DNA of 64,000 bases from Actinophytocola oryzae (GTDB lineage: Bacteria > Actinomycetota > Actinomycetes > Mycobacteriales > Pseudonocardiaceae). Positions 4,542 to 45,803 of this stretch are shown here, piece by piece. The position numbers and the translations under genes were made by a program. Position 1 is the first letter of the stretch; every line of letters starts with the position of its first letter. The stretch spans positions 62,001 to 126,000 of the forward strand of contig NZ_SOCP01000009.1 of the NCBI RefSeq assembly GCF_004364325.1. Direction: 5' to 3'. The notes under the pieces were generated by a model. The model worked only from the letters and a program-made list of their open reading frames with translations, did no database searches and was not told the DNA's origin.

Positions 4542-5452
4542 GATTCACGGCTCCTCGCCTGGCCACGCAGGTAGAAGAACAGGAACGCGGTGATGACGAC
4601 GACCATGACGTTGCCCATCGCCGCCGCGTAGCCGAAGTTGCCGTAGCGGAACGCCTCGTTGTAGGCGAACAGCATCGGCAGCATGGTCTTTCCGCCCGGG
4701 CCGCCCGCCGTGAGCACGAAAACCAGCGCGAACGAGTTGAAGTTCCAGATCAGGTCCAGCGAGGTGATCGCGAGGATCACCGGCCGCAACGCGGGCAGCG
4801 TGACGTGCCAGAACCGCTGCCACGTGCCCGCACCGTCGATGGCCGCCGCCTCGTGCAGGTCGGCCGACACGTTCTGCAGGCCCGCCAACAGGGTCACGGT
4901 CGTCTGCGGCATGCCCGCCCACACGCCGACCACGATCACCGCCGGGAGCGCGGTCGAGAAGTCGCCGAGCCAGTTGATGTCGCCGGAGAGCCCGAGCGTC
5001 CGCATGGTCTCGTTCACCGGGCCGTACGTGGGATTGAGCATGAGCCGCCACATGATCGCGATGACGACCGGCGGCATGGCCCACGGCACGAGCGCGAGCG
5101 TGCGGGCGAGCCACCGCATCCGCAGGTTCAGGTCGAGCAGCAGCGCGAGTCCCAGCGAGGCGAGGAACTGCAGGATCGTGACGCCGAACGCCCACAGCAG
5201 GCCGATGCGGAAGCTGCTCCAGAACAGCTCGTTGTGAAGCAGTTTCGTGTAGTTGTCGACGCCGTTGAAGTTCACCGGCTGGTTGAGGCCCGCCTTGGCG
5301 TCGGTGAAACCGAGCAGGATGCCCTGCACCAGCGGGTAGACGCTGATCAGCACGACCGGGATCAGCGCGGGCAGCACGAGCAGCCACGCGTCGCGGCCGT
5401 CGCCGCGTCCGCGCTGCCTGCGGCGCGGGGCCCGCACGGCGATGGCGGTCAC
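4538..5452 (-). CDS. carbohydrate ABC transporter permease, MalF/UgpA type
   Basis: 304 residues; basic N-terminus, first membrane helix DAWLLVLPALIPVVLISVYP, and the EAA loop DLHEAAAIDGAGTWQRFWHVTLP near residues 198-220. This is the MalF-like partner of the downstream MalG-like permease in the CUT1 carbohydrate importer family. Its start overlaps the end of the LacI gene by 4 nt, so the repressor and the importer it probably controls are made from one transcript. Substrate is not determined by the sequence. Confidence 0.9.
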   Translation of the reverse strand: MTAIAVRAPRRRQRGRGDGRDAWLLVLPALIPVVLISVYPLVQGILLGFTDAKAGLNQPVNFNGVDNYTKLLHNELFWSSFRIGLLWAFGVTILQFLASLGLALLLDLNLRMRWLARTLALVPWAMPPVVIAIMWRLMLNPTYGPVNETMRTLGLSGDINWLGDFSTALPAVIVVGVWAGMPQTTVTLLAGLQNVSADLHEAAAIDGAGTWQRFWHVTLPALRPVILAITSLDLIWNFNSFALVFVLTAGGPGGKTMLPMLFAYNEAFRYGNFGYAAAMGNVMVVVITAFLFFYLRGQARSRES

Positions 5453-6462
5453 AGGTTCTCTTCCTTCGTGGACGAACCGCGGACGGTCAGCGTCGGCTCG
5501 ATGACGACCTGGCGCACCGGCGCGTCCGGCTTCTCCAGGCGCCGCAACAGGAGCCGGGCCGCCGTCCTGGCACGCCGTGTCGCGCCGAGGTCCACGCTGG
5601 TGATCGCGGGGTTCGCGAGGTCGGCGATGTCCGTGTCGTCCATGCCGACGATCGCGACGTCGTCCGGGATCTTGAGGCCGCGGCGGGTGGCCACGTTCAG
5701 CGCGGCGATGGCGAGGAGGTCGTTGGCGCAGACGATCGCGTCCGGAGTTCCCTTCTCAAGCAGCGTCGCCGCGGCCTTGAGGCCGGCCTGGTAGGTGAAG
5801 TCCCTGGCGTCGACCTGGGTCCTGTCCTCGATGCCCCTGGCCGCGAGCGCCTTCAGGTAACCGTCGCGCCGGGCCGCGCCCGGCACGGTGTCGACCGGTC
5901 CGTTGACGAACGCGATGCGCGTGCGGCCCTGCGCGGCGAGGTGGTCGACGGCGAGCGCCATGCCCGCCACGGAGTCCGCCCGGACGTTGTCCAGCTCCGC
6001 ACCGGGCGGCAGCGACCCGATGATCACGATCGGGAGCCTGCTCGACCGCAGCTGCGTGCCCAGCTCCTCCGGCACCCGCAGCGGGCTCATGATCAGCCCG
6101 TCCGCGTAGCCGCGGTTGAGGCTGACCAGCAGGTCGATCTGGTCCTTCGGGTCGATGCCGGTCGAGGACAGGACGAGCCGGTAGCCCGCCTTCGTCACGA
6201 CGCGCGAGATCTCCCGCATCATGCCGACGTACACCGGGTTGCCGACGTCCGCGACCGCGAGCGCGATCTGTTCGGTCCTCCCGACCTTGAGCGAGCGCGC
6301 GGTCGCGTCCGGGACGTAGCCCAGCTCGGCCGCCGCGGCACGCACGCGCTCGGTGACCCGCTCCGACGCCGGCAACCCGTTCATCACCCGTGACACGGAC
6401 GCGATGGACACCCCGGCACGCTCGGCGACCAGCACGAGCGTCGACTTCCTGGGGTCGGCCAT
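5449..6462 (-). CDS. LacI-family transcriptional regulator
   Basis: 337 residues. The N-terminal helix-turn-helix is VAERAGVSIASVSRVMNG (about residues 12-29) with the hinge helix TARSLKVGRT behind it, followed by a periplasmic-binding-protein-like sugar-sensing domain (SSRLPIVIIGSLPPG, VGMDDTDIADLANPAITSVDLG). It is first in the operon LacI - permease - permease - binding protein - two ADP-ribosylglycohydrolases. A double CG-centred palindrome of the LacI type lies 26 nt before the start codon, so negative autoregulation of the whole operon with release by an imported sugar is likely. Confidence 0.92.
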   Translation of the reverse strand: MADPRKSTLVLVAERAGVSIASVSRVMNGLPASERVTERVRAAAAELGYVPDATARSLKVGRTEQIALAVADVGNPVYVGMMREISRVVTKAGYRLVLSSTGIDPKDQIDLLVSLNRGYADGLIMSPLRVPEELGTQLRSSRLPIVIIGSLPPGAELDNVRADSVAGMALAVDHLAAQGRTRIAFVNGPVDTVPGAARRDGYLKALAARGIEDRTQVDARDFTYQAGLKAAATLLEKGTPDAIVCANDLLAIAALNVATRRGLKIPDDVAIVGMDDTDIADLANPAITSVDLGATRRARTAARLLLRRLEKPDAPVRQVVIEPTLTVRGSSTKEENL

Positions 6463-38768: not shown

Positions 38769-38818
38769 CGAAGATCACTGCGTTAGCGTCCTTCCTGGGT
38801 CCCGACCTGGGGAGGCAA

Positions 38819-39253
38819 ATGGGACAGTCCTCAGCTGATGGTGCGTTGTTCTTTCCCGATGTCGAAAATCTTGTCGCCGCCTTTCTCGGCACGCGGGGCG
38901 AGCTCGACGGGGTTTATGTCGGCGTCGCACTCCCGACGGGTTTCGACGGCGGTTCTCGGGCCGTTGTCGTCAACAGGCTCGGCGGCGGGTTTCGGTCGGA
39001 TGATTTTCTCGACGACGTCATCGCGCTGGTGGACGCGTACGGCGGTGACAAGACCTCGGCACACGCGGTGGCCAACGCCGTGCGGGGCGTACTGCCCCTG
39101 ATCACGGTGGCAGGCCACGCGGGCGGCGTGGTCGTGAGCGAAGTGGAAGAAAGCCAGGGGCCGTGCTGGTCGCCGGACCGGCGCAACGGTGGCGCCAGCC
39201 GCTATGTCATGCGATACCGGTTCGTCGTCCCCGTTCGTCCCGTTTCGGCCTGA
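38819..39253 (+). CDS. phage tail terminator-like protein
   Basis: 144 residues, first gene of the tail operon, with GGGGAGG before the ATG. Pattern: FFPDVENLVAAFLG near the start, RAVVVNRLGGGFRSDDFLDD, VIALVDAYGGDKTSAHAVAN, and a C-terminal strand pair SRYVMRYRFVVPVRP. This matches small actinophage tail-completion (terminator) proteins that cap the tail tube on the head side. The match is by size, pattern and position directly before the tube protein; no head-side connector genes precede it. Confidence 0.65.
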   Translation: MGQSSADGALFFPDVENLVAAFLGTRGELDGVYVGVALPTGFDGGSRAVVVNRLGGGFRSDDFLDDVIALVDAYGGDKTSAHAVANAVRGVLPLITVAGHAGGVVVSEVEESQGPCWSPDRRNGGASRYVMRYRFVVPVRPVSA

Positions 39254-39267
39254 GTCAGGAGGATTCC

Positions 39268-39855
39268 GTGGCTGGACTCAATGCCAGTGAAATTCGGGTG
39301 GCCGGTACCGGGACGATCTATGTCGCGCCGGTGCACACGGCCGCCCCGGCCGATTTCTCGGCGGGCGCCTGGGACGCGCCGTGGGTGAATCTCGGGTACA
39401 CCACGTCCGACGGCGTCAAATTCATCAGGAAGGACAAGCTGGATCCGGTCGACACGTGGCAGTCGGTGGCGCCGATCCGGTTCGTGTTCAGCGACCGCGA
39501 CTTCTCCGTGAAGTTCGCGCTGCTGCAGATCAACGCCGACACGCTGCCGTTCTTCTTCAGCGGCAGGGCACTGGACGCGGGCGCCACCTCGTTCGCCCTC
39601 GCCGCGGCGCCGACCGTCGAGGAGCGGGCGCTCGGCATCGAGTTCCACGACGGCCCGGACGTCACGCACCGCCTCCACATCCCGAGGGGCGCGGTGACCG
39701 AGACCGACGAGACGGCGGTGACCCGCACCTCCGCGATCAAGCTCGGCGTCACCTTCACCGCGCTCACCCCGATCAACGGCGAGTTCGAGCCGCTCGCCGT
39801 CTGGTCGATGAAACCGCCCGCCACCGCGTCCGAGGACGCGGAGCAACCGGCCTAG
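39268..39855 (+). CDS. major tail (tube) protein
   Basis: 195 residues from a GTG preceded by CAGGAGG. MAGLNASEIRVAGTGTIYVA followed by APWVNLGYTTSDGVKFIRKD is the typical start of siphophage tube proteins, and the remainder is beta-rich (FVFSDRDFSVKFALLQ, RTSAIKLGVTFTALTPING). The protein polymerises into the tail tube around the tape measure. Position between the terminator-like and chaperone genes fits the conserved siphophage tail order. No immunoglobulin-like C-terminal domain is visible. Confidence 0.82.
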   Translation: MAGLNASEIRVAGTGTIYVAPVHTAAPADFSAGAWDAPWVNLGYTTSDGVKFIRKDKLDPVDTWQSVAPIRFVFSDRDFSVKFALLQINADTLPFFFSGRALDAGATSFALAAAPTVEERALGIEFHDGPDVTHRLHIPRGAVTETDETAVTRTSAIKLGVTFTALTPINGEFEPLAVWSMKPPATASEDAEQPA

Positions 39856-39877
39856 CGACGAGGGGAAGAGCGAACAC

Positions 39878-40186
39878 ATGGGGCGGTACAACGTCAACGC
39901 GGCCAGGGCCCAGCGCCTGGAGGCCCACGGCGAGCGCTGGGACTTCGAGGTCGACGGCGAGCTGTTCTGGCTGCCGACCGAGCTGCCGAGGCACGTCGTG
40001 GGCAAGCTCGCCGAGCTGGACCAGTCCGACCTGGACGGTCTGCTGACCCTGCTGCTGGGCGAGGAGCAGGTCAAGCGTCTCGACCAGCACGTCGTGAGCG
40101 TGCAGGACATCCAGGGGCTGCTGGAGGCCTACGGCCGCGACACCGGCATGACCCTGGGGGAATCCTCGGCCTCGACGCGCTCCTGA
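39878..40186 (+). CDS. tail assembly chaperone gpG-like
   Basis: 102 residues: MGRYNVNAARAQRLEAHGER then WDFEVDGELFWLPTELPRHV and LLTLLLGEEQVKRLDQHVVS. It is the short partner of a gpG/gpGT pair: small, placed between tube and tape-measure genes, and its end overlaps a -1 open frame encoding the second half. Near its 3' end the run GGGGG (40156-40160) offers a slip site. The proteins bind the tape measure during tail assembly and are absent from the finished tail in known phages. Confidence 0.8.
   Translation: MGRYNVNAARAQRLEAHGERWDFEVDGELFWLPTELPRHVVGKLAELDQSDLDGLLTLLLGEEQVKRLDQHVVSVQDIQGLLEAYGRDTGMTLGESSASTRS
40156..40162 (+). promoter_or_regulatory. probable programmed -1 ribosomal frameshift site
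   Basis: The sequence GGGGGAA is read as ctG GGG GAA in the gpG frame. A one-base backward slip on GGG leads into the next frame, giving G-I-L-G-L-D-A-L-L-T-E-H-G and onward without a stop to 40551. The zero-frame stop follows at 40184-40186. Position, direction and gene context match the -1 frameshift conserved in tail assembly chaperones of long-tailed phages. Confidence 0.65.
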
Positions 40187-40551
40187 CCGAGCACGGCGAG
40201 GCCGTGGAAGCCGACCTGCTCCGCTACTACGGCGTGGATCTGCTGGACTACCACCGCGGCACGCTGTCCGCCCGCCGGGTCCGCGTCCTCGTCGAGCACC
40301 TGCCCCGCGACGCGGCGCTCGTGCGTGAGCTGCACGGCGAGACCGCCGACTGGGGGCTGTCCGAACACCTCCTCGCGGCCGTCGTCGACGAGCTGGCCGC
40401 GGGTAACTGGCTGTTCGCCACGGCCAACCGCGACGAACACGCCGACCCGCCCGAGCGGCCCAAACCCGTGCCCCGGCCGGGGATCGAGACCGAGACACCG
40501 GCGGCGACCCCCGCGGAGATCGCGGCGTTCTTCGTGGGAGGCGGACCGTGA
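40159..40551 (+). CDS. tail assembly chaperone T part (made as gpGT fusion)
   Basis: From the slip site the -1 frame reads GILGLDALLTEHGEAVEADL and then RYYGVDLLDYHRGTLSARRV, the conserved actinophage gpT-type motif in which a DLLxxYGVDLLD core precedes LP. About 130 residues are encoded; with the gpG part the fusion is about 224 residues. A GTG at 40204 could start a shorter protein, but it lies inside the conserved motif and has no good Shine-Dalgarno, so the frameshift product is preferred. The stop overlaps the tape-measure GTG by 4 nt. Confidence 0.78.
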   Translation, partial: GILGLDALLTEHGEAVEADLLRYYGVDLLDYHRGTLSARRVRVLVEHLPRDAALVRELHGETADWGLSEHLLAAVVDELAAGNWLFATANRDEHADPPERPKPVPRPGIETETPAATPAEIAAFFVGGGP

Positions 40552-42317
40552 CCGGCGCCTTCGGCGACATCGCCGCCGACGCCCGCGCCGCGATGGAGAG
40601 CGTCGTCGCGGAGGCACGCAACGCCGCCACCGAGCTGGTCACGAGCGTCAGGACCTCGGCTGTCGGCGTGGTGACCGATGCGCGGACCGCCGTCAGCGGG
40701 ATGATCACCGGCGTCACGCAGGCGGTGACGGGTGCGGTGACGGGCGCCGCCAACCAGATCTCGCAGAACTTCACCGAGCACGTCAACGCCCAGCTCGGCG
40801 AGATGACGGAGAAGTTCAAGGAGACCCACCCCGCCGTCACCGGTGCCGTCACCGACGTCGTCGGCTACGCGGACGCGGTGAACACGGCCGCGACCGCCGT
40901 GCAGGGCACCGTCGGCCACGTCAGGGACGCGGCCACGGCCATGCAGGAGCTGCCGGGCGCGATCGGCGACATCCGCACCGGCCTGCGTGACACGGCCACC
41001 GAGGCCGCCGAGCTCGGCCGCGAGGTCAAGGACCTCGCGGCCAAGGCACCCGGTGCGGTCCGCGACCTCGCGTCCTCGGTGAGCGGCAACCTGAAGAGCG
41101 CGTTCGACACCGCACGCGAGAGCGCCACCAAAGCGGCAGGCGCCGTCGGCACGTTCGCGACCAGCGCCAGGACCATGGCCACCAACGCGGCCACCGCCGT
41201 GCGGAGCCTGGTGCAGCTCGCCGCGAGCTACGCCAGAGCGGCGATCCAGGCGGCTCTCGCCGCGGCGAGAACCGTGGCGGTGGCGGTGGCACAACGCGTG
41301 GTCGCGATCGCGACCCGCGCGTGGGCGATCGTGCAGGCCGTGCTGAACGCGGTGATGTCGCTCAACCCCATCGCTCTCGTCGTCATCGCCATCGGGCTGC
41401 TCGTCGCGGCGATCGTGTTGGCGTACAACCGGAGCACGACGTTCCGCACCATCGTCAACGCGGTGTTCACGGCGGTGAAGAACGTCGTCGTGGCCGCGGT
41501 GAACGCGGTGCGCAACGTCATCGCCGTGGTGTGGCCCTACATCGCGCGGGTCGTCCAGGTCGCGGTCACGGCCATCAGGACCTACGTCACCACCTACTTC
41601 ACGATCGTCCGCACCGTGATCACCACCGTGTTCAACGCGGTCCGCGCGGTGGTGCTGGCGGTGTGGAACGCGATCCGCGCGATCATCACCGGCGCGGTCA
41701 ACGCGGTGGTGAGCGTGATCCGCGGCATCAGCCGGGTCGTCGGGATCGTCAGGGACGCGTTCAACCAGGCCAGGAATGCCGTCAGCGGCGCGATCTCCGG
41801 CATGGTCGAGTTCGTGCGCGGCCTGCCGGGCCGCGCGGTGGGCGCGCTCACCAACATCGGCAGGACGCTCTACGAGAAGGGCAAGGACCTCATCCGGGGC
41901 TTCGTCAACGGGATCCGCGACATGGCGGACAACGTCGTGTCGACCATCAAGAACTCGATCATCGACCGGATCCCGGGGCCGATCAAGAGCGCGCTGGGCA
42001 TCTTCTCGCCGTCACGGGTGATGGCCGGCATCGGCCGCGAGATCGGCGCCGGGCTGGCGGTCGGCATCGACGCCTCCGGCGACGAGGTGGCCGGCGCCAT
42101 GAAGAAGCTGGTCCCGGTGCCCAAGGCCGCCACGGTCGCGCCCGCGTTCGCGGCCCTGGCCGCGTCCGTCGGGGGATCGACCCTCGTCCAGGCCGCCCGC
42201 CGGGCCGCCGCGACGTCGCAGGTGACGGTCAACGTCCACCCACGCGAAGGGCAGTCGGAGTACGAGATCGGGCGCGTCGCCGCCCGCGAGGTGGCGTGGG
42301 CGGCGAAGACGTCATGA
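40548..42317 (+). CDS. tail tape measure protein
   Basis: 589 residues, Ala/Val/Thr-rich and almost entirely helical, with one strongly hydrophobic segment NPIALVVIAIGLLVAAIVLA near residue 280, typical of tape measures. The C-terminal region IPGPIKSALGIFSPSRVMAG is the hallmark motif of phage tape-measure tails. Length sets tail length; using about 1.5 angstrom per residue, 589 residues would give a tail near 90 nm, short compared with most siphophages. Repeats of AVxNAVRxVxxAV character run from about 300 to 410. The GTG overlaps the chaperone stop by 4 nt. Confidence 0.9.
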   Translation: MTGAFGDIAADARAAMESVVAEARNAATELVTSVRTSAVGVVTDARTAVSGMITGVTQAVTGAVTGAANQISQNFTEHVNAQLGEMTEKFKETHPAVTGAVTDVVGYADAVNTAATAVQGTVGHVRDAATAMQELPGAIGDIRTGLRDTATEAAELGREVKDLAAKAPGAVRDLASSVSGNLKSAFDTARESATKAAGAVGTFATSARTMATNAATAVRSLVQLAASYARAAIQAALAAARTVAVAVAQRVVAIATRAWAIVQAVLNAVMSLNPIALVVIAIGLLVAAIVLAYNRSTTFRTIVNAVFTAVKNVVVAAVNAVRNVIAVVWPYIARVVQVAVTAIRTYVTTYFTIVRTVITTVFNAVRAVVLAVWNAIRAIITGAVNAVVSVIRGISRVVGIVRDAFNQARNAVSGAISGMVEFVRGLPGRAVGALTNIGRTLYEKGKDLIRGFVNGIRDMADNVVSTIKNSIIDRIPGPIKSALGIFSPSRVMAGIGREIGAGLAVGIDASGDEVAGAMKKLVPVPKAATVAPAFAALAASVGGSTLVQAARRAAATSQVTVNVHPREGQSEYEIGRVAAREVAWAAKTS

Positions 42318-42391
42318 GCGGAGCTTGCGAAGCGAGTCATCGAGGTTCAGGTCGTCGTCGAGTCCGCGGAGCGGCGGAGGTGGCGTCATGA
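42314..42391 (+). CDS. 25-codon coupled micro-ORF between tape measure and Dit-like genes
   Basis: An ATG in a 4-nt overlap with the tape-measure stop opens a frame MSGACEASHRGSGRRRVRGA that ends in a TGA overlapping the ATG of the next gene. Both junctions are ATGA overlaps. It may be a spacer that keeps ribosomes coupled across an inserted repeat-like GAGCGGAGCTTGCGAAGCGA segment, rather than a functional peptide. Confidence 0.3.
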   Translation: MSGACEASHRGSGRRRVRGAAEVAS

Positions 42392-43239
42392 CCTCGGATC
42401 TGGTGCTTCCGGTGTTCACCGTGGACGGCTGGTCGGGGAACGTGGTCGACGACGAGGGCGTCGAGTGGTGGGTGACCAGGGAGGATGGCTGGGCGAGCGG
42501 CCCGGACGTCCGCCTGTCGCTCGCCAGCCGGCCGCAACGCGACGGCGGGTTCGACGCGGAGTCGTTCCGTTCGGTCCGCGTGATCACCCTCGAAGGCCTG
42601 GCGATCGCCCCGGACCGGGACGCCAAGGAACGCGCCAAGAACCGCATGGGTGCCGTCCTGGCGGACGGCTCGACGCTGTCGGAGCTGACCGTCCGGGAAC
42701 GCACGGTGGTCCGCCGCGCGATGGTCAGGCTGTCGGCAGGCACCAAGATCGTCGACAGGGGCCCGCACGGCTTCGAGTTCTCGCTGCAGGTCACCGCGCC
42801 GGACCCGCTCCGGCAGGCCGTCGAACCACGCACGGCCCGCTGCGGCCTGCCGCGACCAGGCCCCGGCGTGACGTTCCCGCTGGGGTTCCCCCTGGCGTTC
42901 GGTGAGCCGGTGGACGGGTCGCTGTCGATGACCAACGCGGGAACCGCCGTCGCGTGGCCGGTGTGGACGATCACCGGACCGGTCAACCAGCCGGTGATCC
43001 GCAACGACTCCACCGGGCAGCGGCTCGCGTTCAGCCTGCGGCTGGCCGAGGGCGACACGCTCACCGTCGACGTGGCCGCCCGCACGGTCACCCTCGGCGG
43101 CGCGTCACGGCGCTCGATGCTGCTGCCGGGCTCGACGTGGTTCGGCCTGCCGCCCGGCACCACCGCCGTCGGCTTCGACGCGACCGACACCACCGCCGCG
43201 GGCACGCTCGCGGTGTCGTGGCGGGATTCCTGGATCTGA
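42388..43239 (+). CDS. distal tail (Dit-like) protein
   Basis: 283 residues. The ATG at 42388 has CGGAGG upstream and starts MTSDLVLPVFTVDGWSGNVV. It shows the siphophage distal-tail family pattern: SVRVITLEGLAIAPDRDAKE in the N-terminal beta-barrel, HGFEFSLQVTAPDPLRQAVE and a C-terminal beta-sandwich with NAGTAVAWPVWTITGPVNQP, as in tail proteins of family PF05709. It forms the hub that closes the tube and holds the baseplate or fibre. Position right after the tape measure is canonical. Confidence 0.8.
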   Translation: MTSDLVLPVFTVDGWSGNVVDDEGVEWWVTREDGWASGPDVRLSLASRPQRDGGFDAESFRSVRVITLEGLAIAPDRDAKERAKNRMGAVLADGSTLSELTVRERTVVRRAMVRLSAGTKIVDRGPHGFEFSLQVTAPDPLRQAVEPRTARCGLPRPGPGVTFPLGFPLAFGEPVDGSLSMTNAGTAVAWPVWTITGPVNQPVIRNDSTGQRLAFSLRLAEGDTLTVDVAARTVTLGGASRRSMLLPGSTWFGLPPGTTAVGFDATDTTAAGTLAVSWRDSWI

Positions 43240-43256
43240 ACGGAGAGGGGACCACC

Positions 43257-44249
43257 ATGGCCGAACGCCATCCCGGCTGGGTCGACGGCATCGACGCGGC
43301 CGAGGCACGTCTGGCCACCGGCCTGCTCGTGGCGGCGAACGGTGTCGCCGACGCGCTCGGCCCGATGCGGGTCCGGTCGGGCATCCGGGACGCACCGGGT
43401 TATCCCGGCCGGGTCGCCGTGAGCGGCACGAAGGCGACGGTCAACGCGTTCCAGGCGGTGATCGCGGACGACGCCCGCCCGGCGGGTGGCGCCTACCTCG
43501 TCACCATGGACACGCAGAAGGAGCTGACCCTCGGCGCCGCGCACCAGTCGCTGTACCGGATGGACCTCGTCGTGGCCGAGGTCCTCGACACCGACCCGGG
43601 GTTGCTCGTCAGCGTCTACCCCGGCGACAACAGCGCGAGTGCGACGCCGCCCAGGCCCGCGGTGACCAACCCGCTGTCGTTGGTGCTCGGCGAGGTCACG
43701 GTGCCGCCCGCCACGACCGGTGCGCCGTCGGCGAAGGACACCCGGTGGTTCACGGCCGCGCTCAACGCGATCATCCCGGTGCTCGGCGAGGCGGACCGGC
43801 CACCCAACCCGCACGGCAGCATGATCATCTTCCGGTTGGACACGCGCAAGCTCGAGGTGCGCACGAGCGAGGGCTGGACGACCTACCGCCCGCCGCGCGG
43901 CAGCGTCGACACCTGGCACACCCCGAGCGCACTGTCCAACGGGTGGGTCAACTACAACGCCGGCTACCCGCAGTTCGGCTACACCATCACCGAGGACGGC
44001 TGGGTCCACCTGCGGGGGCTGATCAAGAGCGGGGTCTTCGACACGACCGCCACCAAACAGATCTTCACGCTCCCGAACACGCCGATCAACTACCGGCCGG
44101 TGACCCACCACCTGTTCCCGGCGGCCGTGCCGCCCGCGGGCAACCCGCCGACCGGCCGGATCGACGTCTGGCCGGACGGCAAGGTCGTCGCCGTCCACGG
44201 CACCAACGGCTACCTGTCACTCGACGGCATCTCGTTCGCCACGTACTGA
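43257..44249 (+). CDS. putative tail fibre / receptor-binding protein
   Basis: 330 residues, ATG with GGAGAGGGG upstream. The N-terminal half (about 1-215) is a tail-associated domain with DAPGYPGRVAVSGTKATVNA and DMVVAEVLDT-like strands (actual: RMDLVVAEVLDTDPGLLVSV) found in actinophage minor tail proteins. The C-terminal half is beta-rich with aromatic and Gly residues (WVNYNAGYPQFGYTITEDGW, VHLRGLIKSG), typical of receptor-binding tips. No collagen repeats, no glycanase motif. It is the best candidate for target recognition by the particle. Confidence 0.65.
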   Translation: MAERHPGWVDGIDAAEARLATGLLVAANGVADALGPMRVRSGIRDAPGYPGRVAVSGTKATVNAFQAVIADDARPAGGAYLVTMDTQKELTLGAAHQSLYRMDLVVAEVLDTDPGLLVSVYPGDNSASATPPRPAVTNPLSLVLGEVTVPPATTGAPSAKDTRWFTAALNAIIPVLGEADRPPNPHGSMIIFRLDTRKLEVRTSEGWTTYRPPRGSVDTWHTPSALSNGWVNYNAGYPQFGYTITEDGWVHLRGLIKSGVFDTTATKQIFTLPNTPINYRPVTHHLFPAAVPPAGNPPTGRIDVWPDGKVVAVHGTNGYLSLDGISFATY

Positions 44250-44251
44250 CC

Positions 44252-45337
44252 ATGGGGGCCACCTACACGTACCTGATCGCGGACCTGCGCGGCGGCGACA
44301 TCCTCGACGAGCTGCCGCTCTCCGGCGTCACGTTCGACAAGAAGCTCAACGACACCGGGTCCTTGCGCGCGCAGCTCTACGTCGGCGACCCGGAGATCCG
44401 GGTGAGGGAACCACGGCTGCTCACCGAGCCGGGCCGCACGGCTGTCTACGTCGACCGCGACGGTGAGCTGCTGTGGGGCGGGATCGTCTGGACCAGCCGG
44501 TACTCCGGCGCCTCCAACGTGCTGGAGCTGGGTGCCGCCGACCTGCTGTCGTACTTCGAGCACCGGCTCGTGCTCGACCCGGAGGACCCCACCGCAGGCG
44601 TGCCGCTGGCAGGCGACCAGCTCGCGGTCGCCAGGAGCCTCGTCACGGGTGCGCAGTCCCATCCCGGCGGCGACCTCGGGATCGTGTTCACCGGCGCCGA
44701 GTCCTCCGGCGTCACCCGCACGGTCACCTACTCGCCGGGCGACCTCAAGCCGGTCGCCGACGCGCTGCGGGACCTCGCCAACGCCGACGACGGCTTCGAC
44801 TTCACCGTCGACGTCCGGTACGGCGAAAGTGGGGAGCCGCAACGGTTCCTGCGGTTCGGCTTCCCGCGCCTCGGGCAGCCGGGCGCACCGTACGTCTGGG
44901 AGTACGGCGCGAACCTCGTCGACTACGTCTGGCCGAGCGACGCCGCGAGCATGGCCACCCGCGTGCTGGCGCCGGGCGGCGCACCCGTCGTGACCGACCC
45001 GACCGCCCTCACCGCGGGCTGGCCGCTGCTGGACGCACAGGTGTCGCCGTCGGACACCACCGACGCCGCGATGCTCGACGCACAGGTGAAGGGTGAGCTG
45101 GCCGCACGTCGCAGACCGGTCGTGCTGCCCGAGCTGACCGTGCGTGCGGACCTGGACCCGGTGGTGGGCAGCTACTCCGTCGGCGACGACGCGCGGATCG
45201 TCATCGACGACCCGTTCTTCGCCGGCGAGCAGCTCGACGTCACCGTGCGGATACTCGGCCTCGAGGTCACCCCGGGCGACGACGCCGGTCAGGAACAGGT
45301 CACGCTCACCGTCGCGCCGTTCCTGGAGCAGTCATGA
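44252..45337 (+). CDS. Gp37-like minor tail protein (Tal-type hub)
   Basis: 361 residues starting MGATYTYLIADLRGGDILDE two bases after the preceding stop. The pattern matches the siphovirus ReqiPepy6 Gp37-like family: LPLSGVTFDKKLNDTGSLRA, GRTAVYVDRDGELLWGGIVW, EYGANLVDYVWPSDAASMAT and RADLDPVVGSYSVGDDARIV. These proteins form the tail-tip hub below Dit. No peptidoglycan hydrolase domain is fused. Its stop overlaps the start of the last tail gene by 4 nt. Confidence 0.8.
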   Translation: MGATYTYLIADLRGGDILDELPLSGVTFDKKLNDTGSLRAQLYVGDPEIRVREPRLLTEPGRTAVYVDRDGELLWGGIVWTSRYSGASNVLELGAADLLSYFEHRLVLDPEDPTAGVPLAGDQLAVARSLVTGAQSHPGGDLGIVFTGAESSGVTRTVTYSPGDLKPVADALRDLANADDGFDFTVDVRYGESGEPQRFLRFGFPRLGQPGAPYVWEYGANLVDYVWPSDAASMATRVLAPGGAPVVTDPTALTAGWPLLDAQVSPSDTTDAAMLDAQVKGELAARRRPVVLPELTVRADLDPVVGSYSVGDDARIVIDDPFFAGEQLDVTVRILGLEVTPGDDAGQEQVTLTVAPFLEQS

Positions 45338-45765
45338 CGAGGGTCAACCGGCCGGACACGCTCCTGACCCGGCTGCGGGAGATCGAGCGTCGCCTTCGGC
45401 TGCTCGAAGGCCGCGGACCCGCGATGACCATGGCCTCGGTCTCGCCCCCGCCACCGAGGCCCGTGCCGCTCACACCCGCACGGCCCAGGGACTGGCCGGG
45501 TACCGACTCTCCCGAGTGGACGGACCTCGTCCTCACCCTCGCACAGCCGGGCGAGTTCCGGGTCGTGGTCGACGCCGTCGCGGACACCGGGGCGTCGGGG
45601 GAGGCACGGGTGCTGGTGAACGGGACACCGGTCGGCGCGGGGTTCGCCGTGGGGGAGTGGCACGTCGTCGACATCACCGTCGGGGAGGAACTGAGCGAGG
45701 TCGTCGTGCAGGCACGCAGGACGGGTGGCGGCGGCCTCGTCCGCGTCAGCGCGACGCTGGTGTAG
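45334..45765 (+). CDS. small tail-tip protein with N-terminal coiled coil
   Basis: 143 residues. LLTRLREIERRLRLLEGRGP (about 10-29) is a short coiled coil of the kind that trimerises tail fibres; a Pro-rich linker PPPPRPVPLTPARPRDWPG leads to a beta-rich C-terminal domain (LTLAQPGEFRVVVDAVADTG). It is the last gene of the tail operon, coupled by ATGA to the Gp37-like gene and followed 1 nt later by a strong bidirectional hairpin. A role as tip or adhesin subunit is inferred. Confidence 0.6.
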   Translation: MTRVNRPDTLLTRLREIERRLRLLEGRGPAMTMASVSPPPPRPVPLTPARPRDWPGTDSPEWTDLVLTLAQPGEFRVVVDAVADTGASGEARVLVNGTPVGAGFAVGEWHVVDITVGEELSEVVVQARRTGGGGLVRVSATLV

Positions 45766-45766
45766 G

Positions 45767-45796
45767 CCGGTGGGACACCTCGCGGTGCCCCACCGG
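45767..45796. terminator. bidirectional terminator between tail operon and ThuA-type gene
   Basis: Arms CCGGTGGGACACC (45767-45779) and GGTGCCCCACCGG (45784-45796) pair over 12 of 13 positions around a 4-nt loop. The two operons converge here with 38 nt between stops, so it serves both. Confidence 0.75.
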
Positions 45797-45803
45797 TCAC
45801 CCA

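Follow-up and report, generated by a model that had tools for sequence, protein, structure and literature searches.

A stand-alone siphophage-type tail gene cassette in Actinophytocola oryzae and its relatives in other actinomycetes

Three F-type tailocins, namely F-pyocin, monocin and rhizoviticin, are named as known in excerpts of a 2024 paper (PMC10811719). According to excerpts of the respective sources, monocin is encoded by 18 genes including a holin-lysin cassette and has been shown to kill (PMC7076858), and rhizoviticin is SOS-dependent and comes with regulators and lysis genes (PMC10811719). For actinomycetes, a search of the open-licence PMC literature gave no report of non-contractile headless tails among the matches listed. 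In this study, we analyzed a stretch of 64,000 nucleotides from Actinophytocola oryzae (contig NZ_SOCP01000009.1, positions 62,001 to 126,000; hereafter the window), which contains a cassette of nine tail genes between positions 38819 and 45765. We read this cassette, with moderate confidence, as a domesticated stand-alone non-contractile tail, most likely working like an F-type tailocin whose release depends on the host.

Gene content and surroundings of the cassette

The nine open reading frames (ORFs) are all intact, lie on one strand with a spacing of -4 to 70 bp and, according to PHROGs and Pfam profile searches, form a siphophage-type tail set in canonical order. The initial annotation had described them in the same way from the sequence, and most can now be named by profile, with only general matches for genes 7 and 9. 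The features, all on the forward strand, are:

38779..38796, +, promoter-like motif TGCGTTAGCGT with a -10-like TAGCGT, 22 bp 5' of the gene 1 start
38819..39253, +, gene 1, tail terminator (phrog_123, 1e-18; Pfam terminator below cut-off only)
39268..39855, +, gene 2, tail tube protein (PF25681, 3e-54; phrog_117, 3e-35)
39878..40186, +, gene 3, tail assembly chaperone G (phrog_10551, 1e-15)
40156..40162, +, slippery site G GGG GAA, candidate -1 frameshift fusing genes 3 and 4 (codon conservation)
40204..40551, +, gene 4, GT chaperone part (phrog_5813, 1e-27, aligned to positions 157-261 of 318)
40548..42317, +, gene 5, tape measure protein, 589 aa (phrog_58, 9e-52)
42388..43239, +, gene 6, distal tail protein (Dit)/minor tail protein (PF22768, 1e-14; phrog_5577, 4e-52)
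43257..44249, +, gene 7, predicted receptor-binding protein (RBP) (alignment; predicted fold; phrog_3398, 6e-15)
44252..45337, +, gene 8, hub/minor tail protein (phrog_1885, 1e-68; predicted fold)
45334..45765, +, gene 9, coiled-coil and beta-domain protein, probably at the tip (phrog_9849, 2e-10, unknown function)
45758..45803, +, 3' hairpin, terminator-like, without U-tract (fold -32.4 kcal/mol, z -4.2)

The most likely start is 39268 for gene 2 and 42388 for gene 6. The family of gene 7, phrog_3398, is described as ‘virion structural protein’ and filed under head and packaging in PHROGs. No contractile sheath family was matched by any of the nine proteins in PHROGs or Pfam, and the class of contractile injection systems (R-tailocins and extracellular contractile injection systems, eCIS) was rejected on this ground. 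Seven of the nine proteins were submitted to defence-system models and gave no match, and a sequence search of solved structures with the RBP and tube profiles found nothing. Tail length follows the tape measure protein at 0.15 nm per residue; by this rule, the 589 residues predict a short tail of about 90 nm. Across the eleven cassettes of the window type (type A1, see below), the length of this protein ranges from 486 to 589 residues.

In the alignment of gene 7, the N-terminal part is more conserved and the C-terminal third is variable. Its AlphaFold2 model (pLDDT 72) matches gp15 of Listeria phage PSA over residues 215-330 (Z 14.1, root-mean-square deviation 1.6 over 101 residues), followed by a Pseudomonas phage tail needle (Z 13.5), and it also matches the RBP of lactococcal phage p2 (Foldseek 2e-6, low TM). 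Gene 7 is predicted to encode an RBP that ends in a siphophage receptor-binding head. The best AlphaFold2 model of the hub has a pLDDT of 75 (53-67 for the other four models), and its Foldseek matches are tail hubs, including those of diffocin and monocin, with a TM of about 0.3. Gene 9 is present in ten of the eleven A1 cassettes. No lytic domain was seen in the tip proteins.

Relative to gene 3, gene 4 is read in the -1 frame, which is open far upstream of the gene 4 start. The junction reads (C/T)TG GGG GAA in all 16 type A cassettes (A1 and A2), and GGG GAA recurs in 33 of 33 related headless clusters of two other families in which gene 3 was called. In gene 3 of the 16 cassettes, two or three codons occur at each of the other invariant glycines, and both glutamate codons at three of the four other invariant glutamates, whereas the GGG-GAA pair never varies; in the codon usage of the cassettes, GGG accounts for 22% of the glycine codons and GAA for 26% of the glutamate codons. 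Gene 4 is most likely made as a G-GT fusion via a -1 frameshift.

The left neighbour of the cassette is a class A penicillin-binding protein (PBP) gene, as initially annotated, and the right neighbour, on the opposite strand, encodes a ThuA/GSDH/CBM6 protein; the strong hairpin after gene 9 lacks a U-tract. Ten further window genes that were scanned matched no phage family and are metabolic, secreted or of unknown function. No integrase family was found among the window neighbours scanned, no exact attachment-like repeats flank the cassette, and the window has a single tRNA gene, at a distance of 37 kb. The PF05065 capsid and PF04860 portal, the two head families covered genome-wide, have no match in the whole 10.7-Mb genome (98.6% complete, 52 contigs). 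The genome has one 21.7-bit match to phrog_2, which we take to be a terminase family; this profile also matches in 11 of 14 control genomes and is unspecific. Neither an assignment to the prophages or their remnants (no integrase among the neighbours scanned, no exact flanking repeat, neither of the two head families) nor one to the gene transfer agents (neither head family in the genome) was supported.

The scan was extended to 42 proteins encoded next to 15 cassettes (the two or three nearest upstream genes per cassette; two upstream and one downstream for the window). They matched 17 PHROGs at 1e-5, none of them a head, packaging or lysis family: five are described (DNA binding, two ABC transporter families, elongation factor, partition) and twelve carry no description. 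As a positive control, 44 upstream proteins, hand-picked from 110 and covering seven of eleven prophages, yielded six portal, six terminase, six protease and four major head members at 1e-3. In a wider scan of 116 flanking proteins, 25 of the 87 matched PHROG families were listed, and the headless call rests on the 42 nearest proteins. The initial statement that head, packaging and integration genes are missing near the cassette is thus borne out by the neighbour scans and, for the two head families, throughout the genome.

These results also bear on the idea that the cassette supplies tails to capsid-only elements, or is part of a gene transfer agent, with heads encoded elsewhere. Capsid-forming islands do borrow tails, and a terminator protein has been kept at the head-proximal end. 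The absence of PF05065 and PF04860 from the genome argues against this idea, as far as two families go and bearing in mind that a visiting element could bring its own heads, and we regard it as very unlikely. For the same absence, the gene-transfer remnant among the initial proposals is unlikely.

Relatives in Pseudonocardiaceae and two further families

A search with the hub protein in 390 genomes of the family gave 38 genomes with a match at 1e-30 or better. The hub scores at least 346 bits in 16 of the 390, and all 16 matches lie in tail-only cassettes as far as sequence was fetched (4.2-8.2 kb upstream for 14 cassettes, the whole left part for the window and 0.4 kb for the contig-cut L017). 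Eleven cassettes are of the window type A1: nine have all nine genes, L059 has no detected gene 9, and L017 is cut upstream by the contig end. The five cassettes of the second type, A2, have an extra gene before the tape measure gene, two gene-7-like genes and no gene 9. Named carriers include Amycolatopsis pretoriensis, A. eburnea and A. sp. NBRC 101858. Of the weaker hub matches, those opened fall mostly into long co-directional gene arrays, which are complete prophages by look. The tube protein scores at least 302 bits in 15 loci and in one more that is split over two contigs, and all remaining matches in these genomes stay below 127 bits; nine loci of the lower class were opened and are full prophages by look, with head genes confirmed by PHROGs in seven.

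Genes were called in all frames with our own caller, which misses small genes and low-GC loci. No tail gene is among the calls at L094, and L200 (G747:C22) has a hub gene at 400 bits with no other tail gene detected, representing either a decayed cassette or genes missed by the caller. Among the missed genes is a conserved ORF of 51-54 aa (MPRIRLTYWWDGHAPGD...), which overlaps the gene 1 start in all five A2 cassettes (L063-L067) and weakly matches one PHROG of unknown function. A second, unrelated-looking kind of tail-only cassette was seen at two of the weaker hub matches, L020:4666-12087 (G024:C6) and L071 (G174:C1), in both cases near greA- and mca-like genes (gene names by eye).

The cassette is flanked by the same pair of genes in four Amycolatopsis genomes, and two more genomes share the downstream neighbour. 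The upstream neighbour belongs to GH92 by Pfam in L016 and is 95-96% alike in the others. For three Amycolatopsis pairs, the synonymous divergence (dS) is 0.10-0.51 in the cassette and 0.06-0.38 in the flanking genes, with a cassette omega of 0.03-0.44; A2 pairs have an omega of 0.06-0.58. The Amycolatopsis cassette has diverged in place under purifying selection. Between genera, the cassette sites differ. The initial annotation had raised the possibility of a conserved location flanked by PBP and ThuA genes, which was rejected: in the two genomes of the same genus that have a close PBP orthologue (G005 and G003), no cassette adjoins it, the DNA homology ends within 30 bp of the PBP stop, and one of the six genomes of the genus carries a cassette. 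Given the fixed site in Amycolatopsis, the different sites across genera and the single carrier in the window genus, the cassette is handed down within one group, and on larger scales it has moved or been lost.

Sporadic presence at different sites would also suit a decaying prophage remnant without its former head, lysis and integration genes, and the family is rich in prophages whose tail genes are homologous; in addition, tRNA genes lie close upstream of two A2 relatives. Opposed to this are the nine intact frames of the window, the full gene set in most A1 cassettes, the purifying selection at a fixed site in Amycolatopsis, the same gene cut-off recurring in 16 genomes and the lack of attachment-like exact repeats around the window cassette; L200 may show what a decayed case looks like. 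A remnant is therefore unlikely. The initial annotation had likewise judged a pure decay product less likely, and the signs by which it would have recognized an ordinary remnant (head genes nearby, attachment sites, presence in a single strain) did not appear: PF05065, PF04860 and exact repeats are absent, and 16 genomes carry a cassette.

Fuller relatives of the window cassette are found in a family labeled f33, which is probably Streptomycetaceae. The tube protein matched at 1e-30 in 29 of 200 f33 genomes, and all 29 loci were opened: three are head-bearing in look (L315, L316, L327), L326 is decayed and L307 is truncated at a contig end. Many of the headless f33 clusters (L204, L205, L297-L314, L325, L328-L331) have XRE, WhiB-like and BldC-like genes upstream, and the number of RBP-like genes varies from zero to four. 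An amidase gene is present in 16 of the 29 loci (L204 and L205 counted), and many clusters contain small holin-like genes, a label that is our own call for PHROGs of unknown function. Pfam supports the helix-turn-helix (HTH), WhiB and amidase genes in L205 and RpoC in L204. At least 13 of the 29 loci have rpoC or rpsL-rpsG at the cluster edge, and three have both. In a second family, f31, the tube matched at 1e-20 in 12 of 298 genomes, six of them of one genus. Nine of the eleven f31 loci opened are headless in look, and L255 has the layout of the window itself. The headless f31 clusters L248-L254 and L320-L322 have WhiB and BldC-like genes; four clusters were opened further downstream, and three of them end with peptidoglycan-binding proteins, one of which has a CHAP domain. 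Head status was judged by gene sizes and order only for L027, L029, L092, L201, L257, L258, L315, L316, L327 and several prophages of the hub tree.

In the tube tree, a branch separates 49 headless rows from 15 rows (support 93/71, not starred), after removal of L201, L027 and L326 (two very long branches and one decayed row); the full set of 67 rows requires the headless label to change twice. In the hub tree, which includes part of the f31 and f33 loci, the window type and L255 form a group of 17 (SH-aLRT 91), and twelve f33 loci and one f31 locus form a group of 13 (support 100), with prophages between the two groups and L020/L071 nested among prophages. The hub tree rejects a single headless group, which means that either tips have been exchanged or headless loci arose repeatedly. 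In neither tree does a head-bearing row fall inside the A1 group or the A2 group. Among the matches listed, the closest phage proteins have identities of 35% (hub) and 32% (tube), and IMG/VR contains a hub match of 44% identity; these closest relatives have heads or are fragments. No tube match was confirmed in IMG/VR, in a scan with degenerate exact patterns that is weak as a sign of absence. The cassette may have an unsampled phage parent.

As a tentative extension, it is possible that an old domesticated headless-tail lineage exists in at least three actinomycete families, with an f33 form, often beside rpoC or rpsL, that includes XRE, WhiB- and BldC-like regulators and lysis genes, and a Pseudonocardiaceae form reduced to a site-changing, lysis-free core of nine genes, which would be released or act via the cell-death programme of the host.

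Control, release and proposed function

The motif TGCGTTAGCGT is common to several A1 cassettes 5' of gene 1, with a score of 175 against at most 140 in eight mononucleotide shuffles, a weak comparison since the copies come from related loci. A consensus scan found no sigma-70 promoter upstream of gene 1. SOS control of the window cassette was rejected, the best LexA-like site having 4 of 12 mismatches; control from afar is possible. In five f33 loci (L303, L304, L306, L312, L326), a LexA box with zero or one mismatch precedes the tube gene, and two further f33 clusters (L314, L325) have one inside, in a scan of 25 f33 loci that included the head-bearing L316 and the decayed L326, with a mononucleotide shuffle of four loci as a weak null. 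Genes for DNA-binding regulators adjoin gene 1 in three A1 cassettes (L019:15863-16906, L061:12037-13029, L062:11972-12400), with DUF5937 and an ArsR-type HTH in two and HTH_31 in one. In Streptomyces venezuelae, mitomycin C raises the ‘phage tail fiber’ gene vnz_21525 526-fold and a LexA site is present; its authors place the gene in a predicted prophage cluster (excerpts of PMC9380542), and the mitomycin-induced genes extend to vnz_21550. As a lead, this cluster may belong to the f33-type or cassette family.

Our preferred reading, a tailocin-like weapon, fits best because the cassette encodes a plausibly complete short tail and an aiming protein, is kept by its hosts and lacks heads. The particle would be a short headless tail in which a terminator-capped tube is built on the tape measure and carries the Dit ring, the hub, the coiled-coil protein and the RBP. 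The head of gene 7 would bind the envelope of related bacteria, and the bound tail would damage the target membrane. As the cassette has no recognised lysis or regulatory gene, release would have to be provided by the host, for example by lysis upon the death of old hyphae. Assembly, target, killing and release are all inferred. Of the initial interpretation, the domesticated headless non-contractile tail stands and decay does not, in view of the 16 genomes and the purifying selection; the tailocin is the best, unproven reading. The question of how particles leave the cell, raised initially from the missing lysis genes, is justified, and related clusters in two other families do have lysis genes.

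The missing lysis genes would also fit a device that is not released as a weapon but serves the producer itself, inside the cell or on its surface, for instance during development, cell death or adhesion. The related clusters, with their WhiB- and BldC-like regulators, point the same way, as do the contractile systems of Streptomyces, which stay cytoplasmic and act in cell death (excerpts of PMC10066040 and PMC12237407). On the other hand, an RBP with a variable head points outward and many relatives have lysis genes, which makes such a device rather unlikely.

Several observations weigh against a domesticated, tailocin-like cassette. No lysis family was found among the window genes scanned (the flanking genes and ten others), no regulatory gene was recognised in the window cassette, and the 500 bp upstream of it contain no LexA box with fewer than 4 mismatches of 12. 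The cassette is sporadic (one of six genomes in the genus, 16 of 390 in the family), the tube and hub trees conflict, and purifying selection is expected in phages too. The slippery site also occurs in L315 and L327; since both are head-bearing in look, it is a trait of the tail family under selection and no mark of domestication. In the A2 cassettes L064 (4827-4902) and L066 (14139-14214), a tRNA-Leu gene lies about 0.9 kb upstream, and tRNA genes are the usual phage integration sites; the 20 kb of a third A2 locus include a tRNA-Pro gene at another position, and none of the A1 loci has a tRNA gene. Finally, the A2 cassette L063 has an endolysin-like gene on the minus strand directly after the hub (5098-5994; phrog_13480, 1e-35, Rv2525c-like domain).

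Comparison with known systems

The cassette shares with F-type tailocins a tail set without sheath, the absence of head and packaging genes among those found and an RBP (by predicted fold); neither a holin-lysin cassette nor SOS control was found. It is not a full member of this class, because the lysis genes of monocin and rhizoviticin are missing. If our reading is true, an actinomycete lineage adds a class of protein particles to well-studied, antibiotic-producing bacteria, and the lysis-free form raises the testable question of whether the tails leave multicellular hyphae or act inside.

Monocin (the ftb cluster of Listeria monocytogenes) is likewise a headless siphophage-type tail of a Gram-positive host, and its tip (9j1k) is matched by the window hub model (Foldseek 1e-4, TM about 0.3); the window differs in having nine genes without lysis genes. 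Rhizoviticin and F-pyocin, the F-type tailocins of Proteobacteria, also consist of non-contractile tail genes without head genes, the comparison with F-pyocin being drawn from general background and excerpts of PMC10811719 only. The window cassette showed no counterpart of the SOS control, regulators and lysis genes of rhizoviticin. Actinomycete siphophages and prophages have the same tail gene order with distant homology, and differ in that heads are present or that they are fragments. The Streptomyces contractile injection systems CIS-Sc and SLP differ in being contractile, with no sheath among the nine window proteins, and resemble the cassette as phage-tail-derived devices that are kept in actinomycetes.

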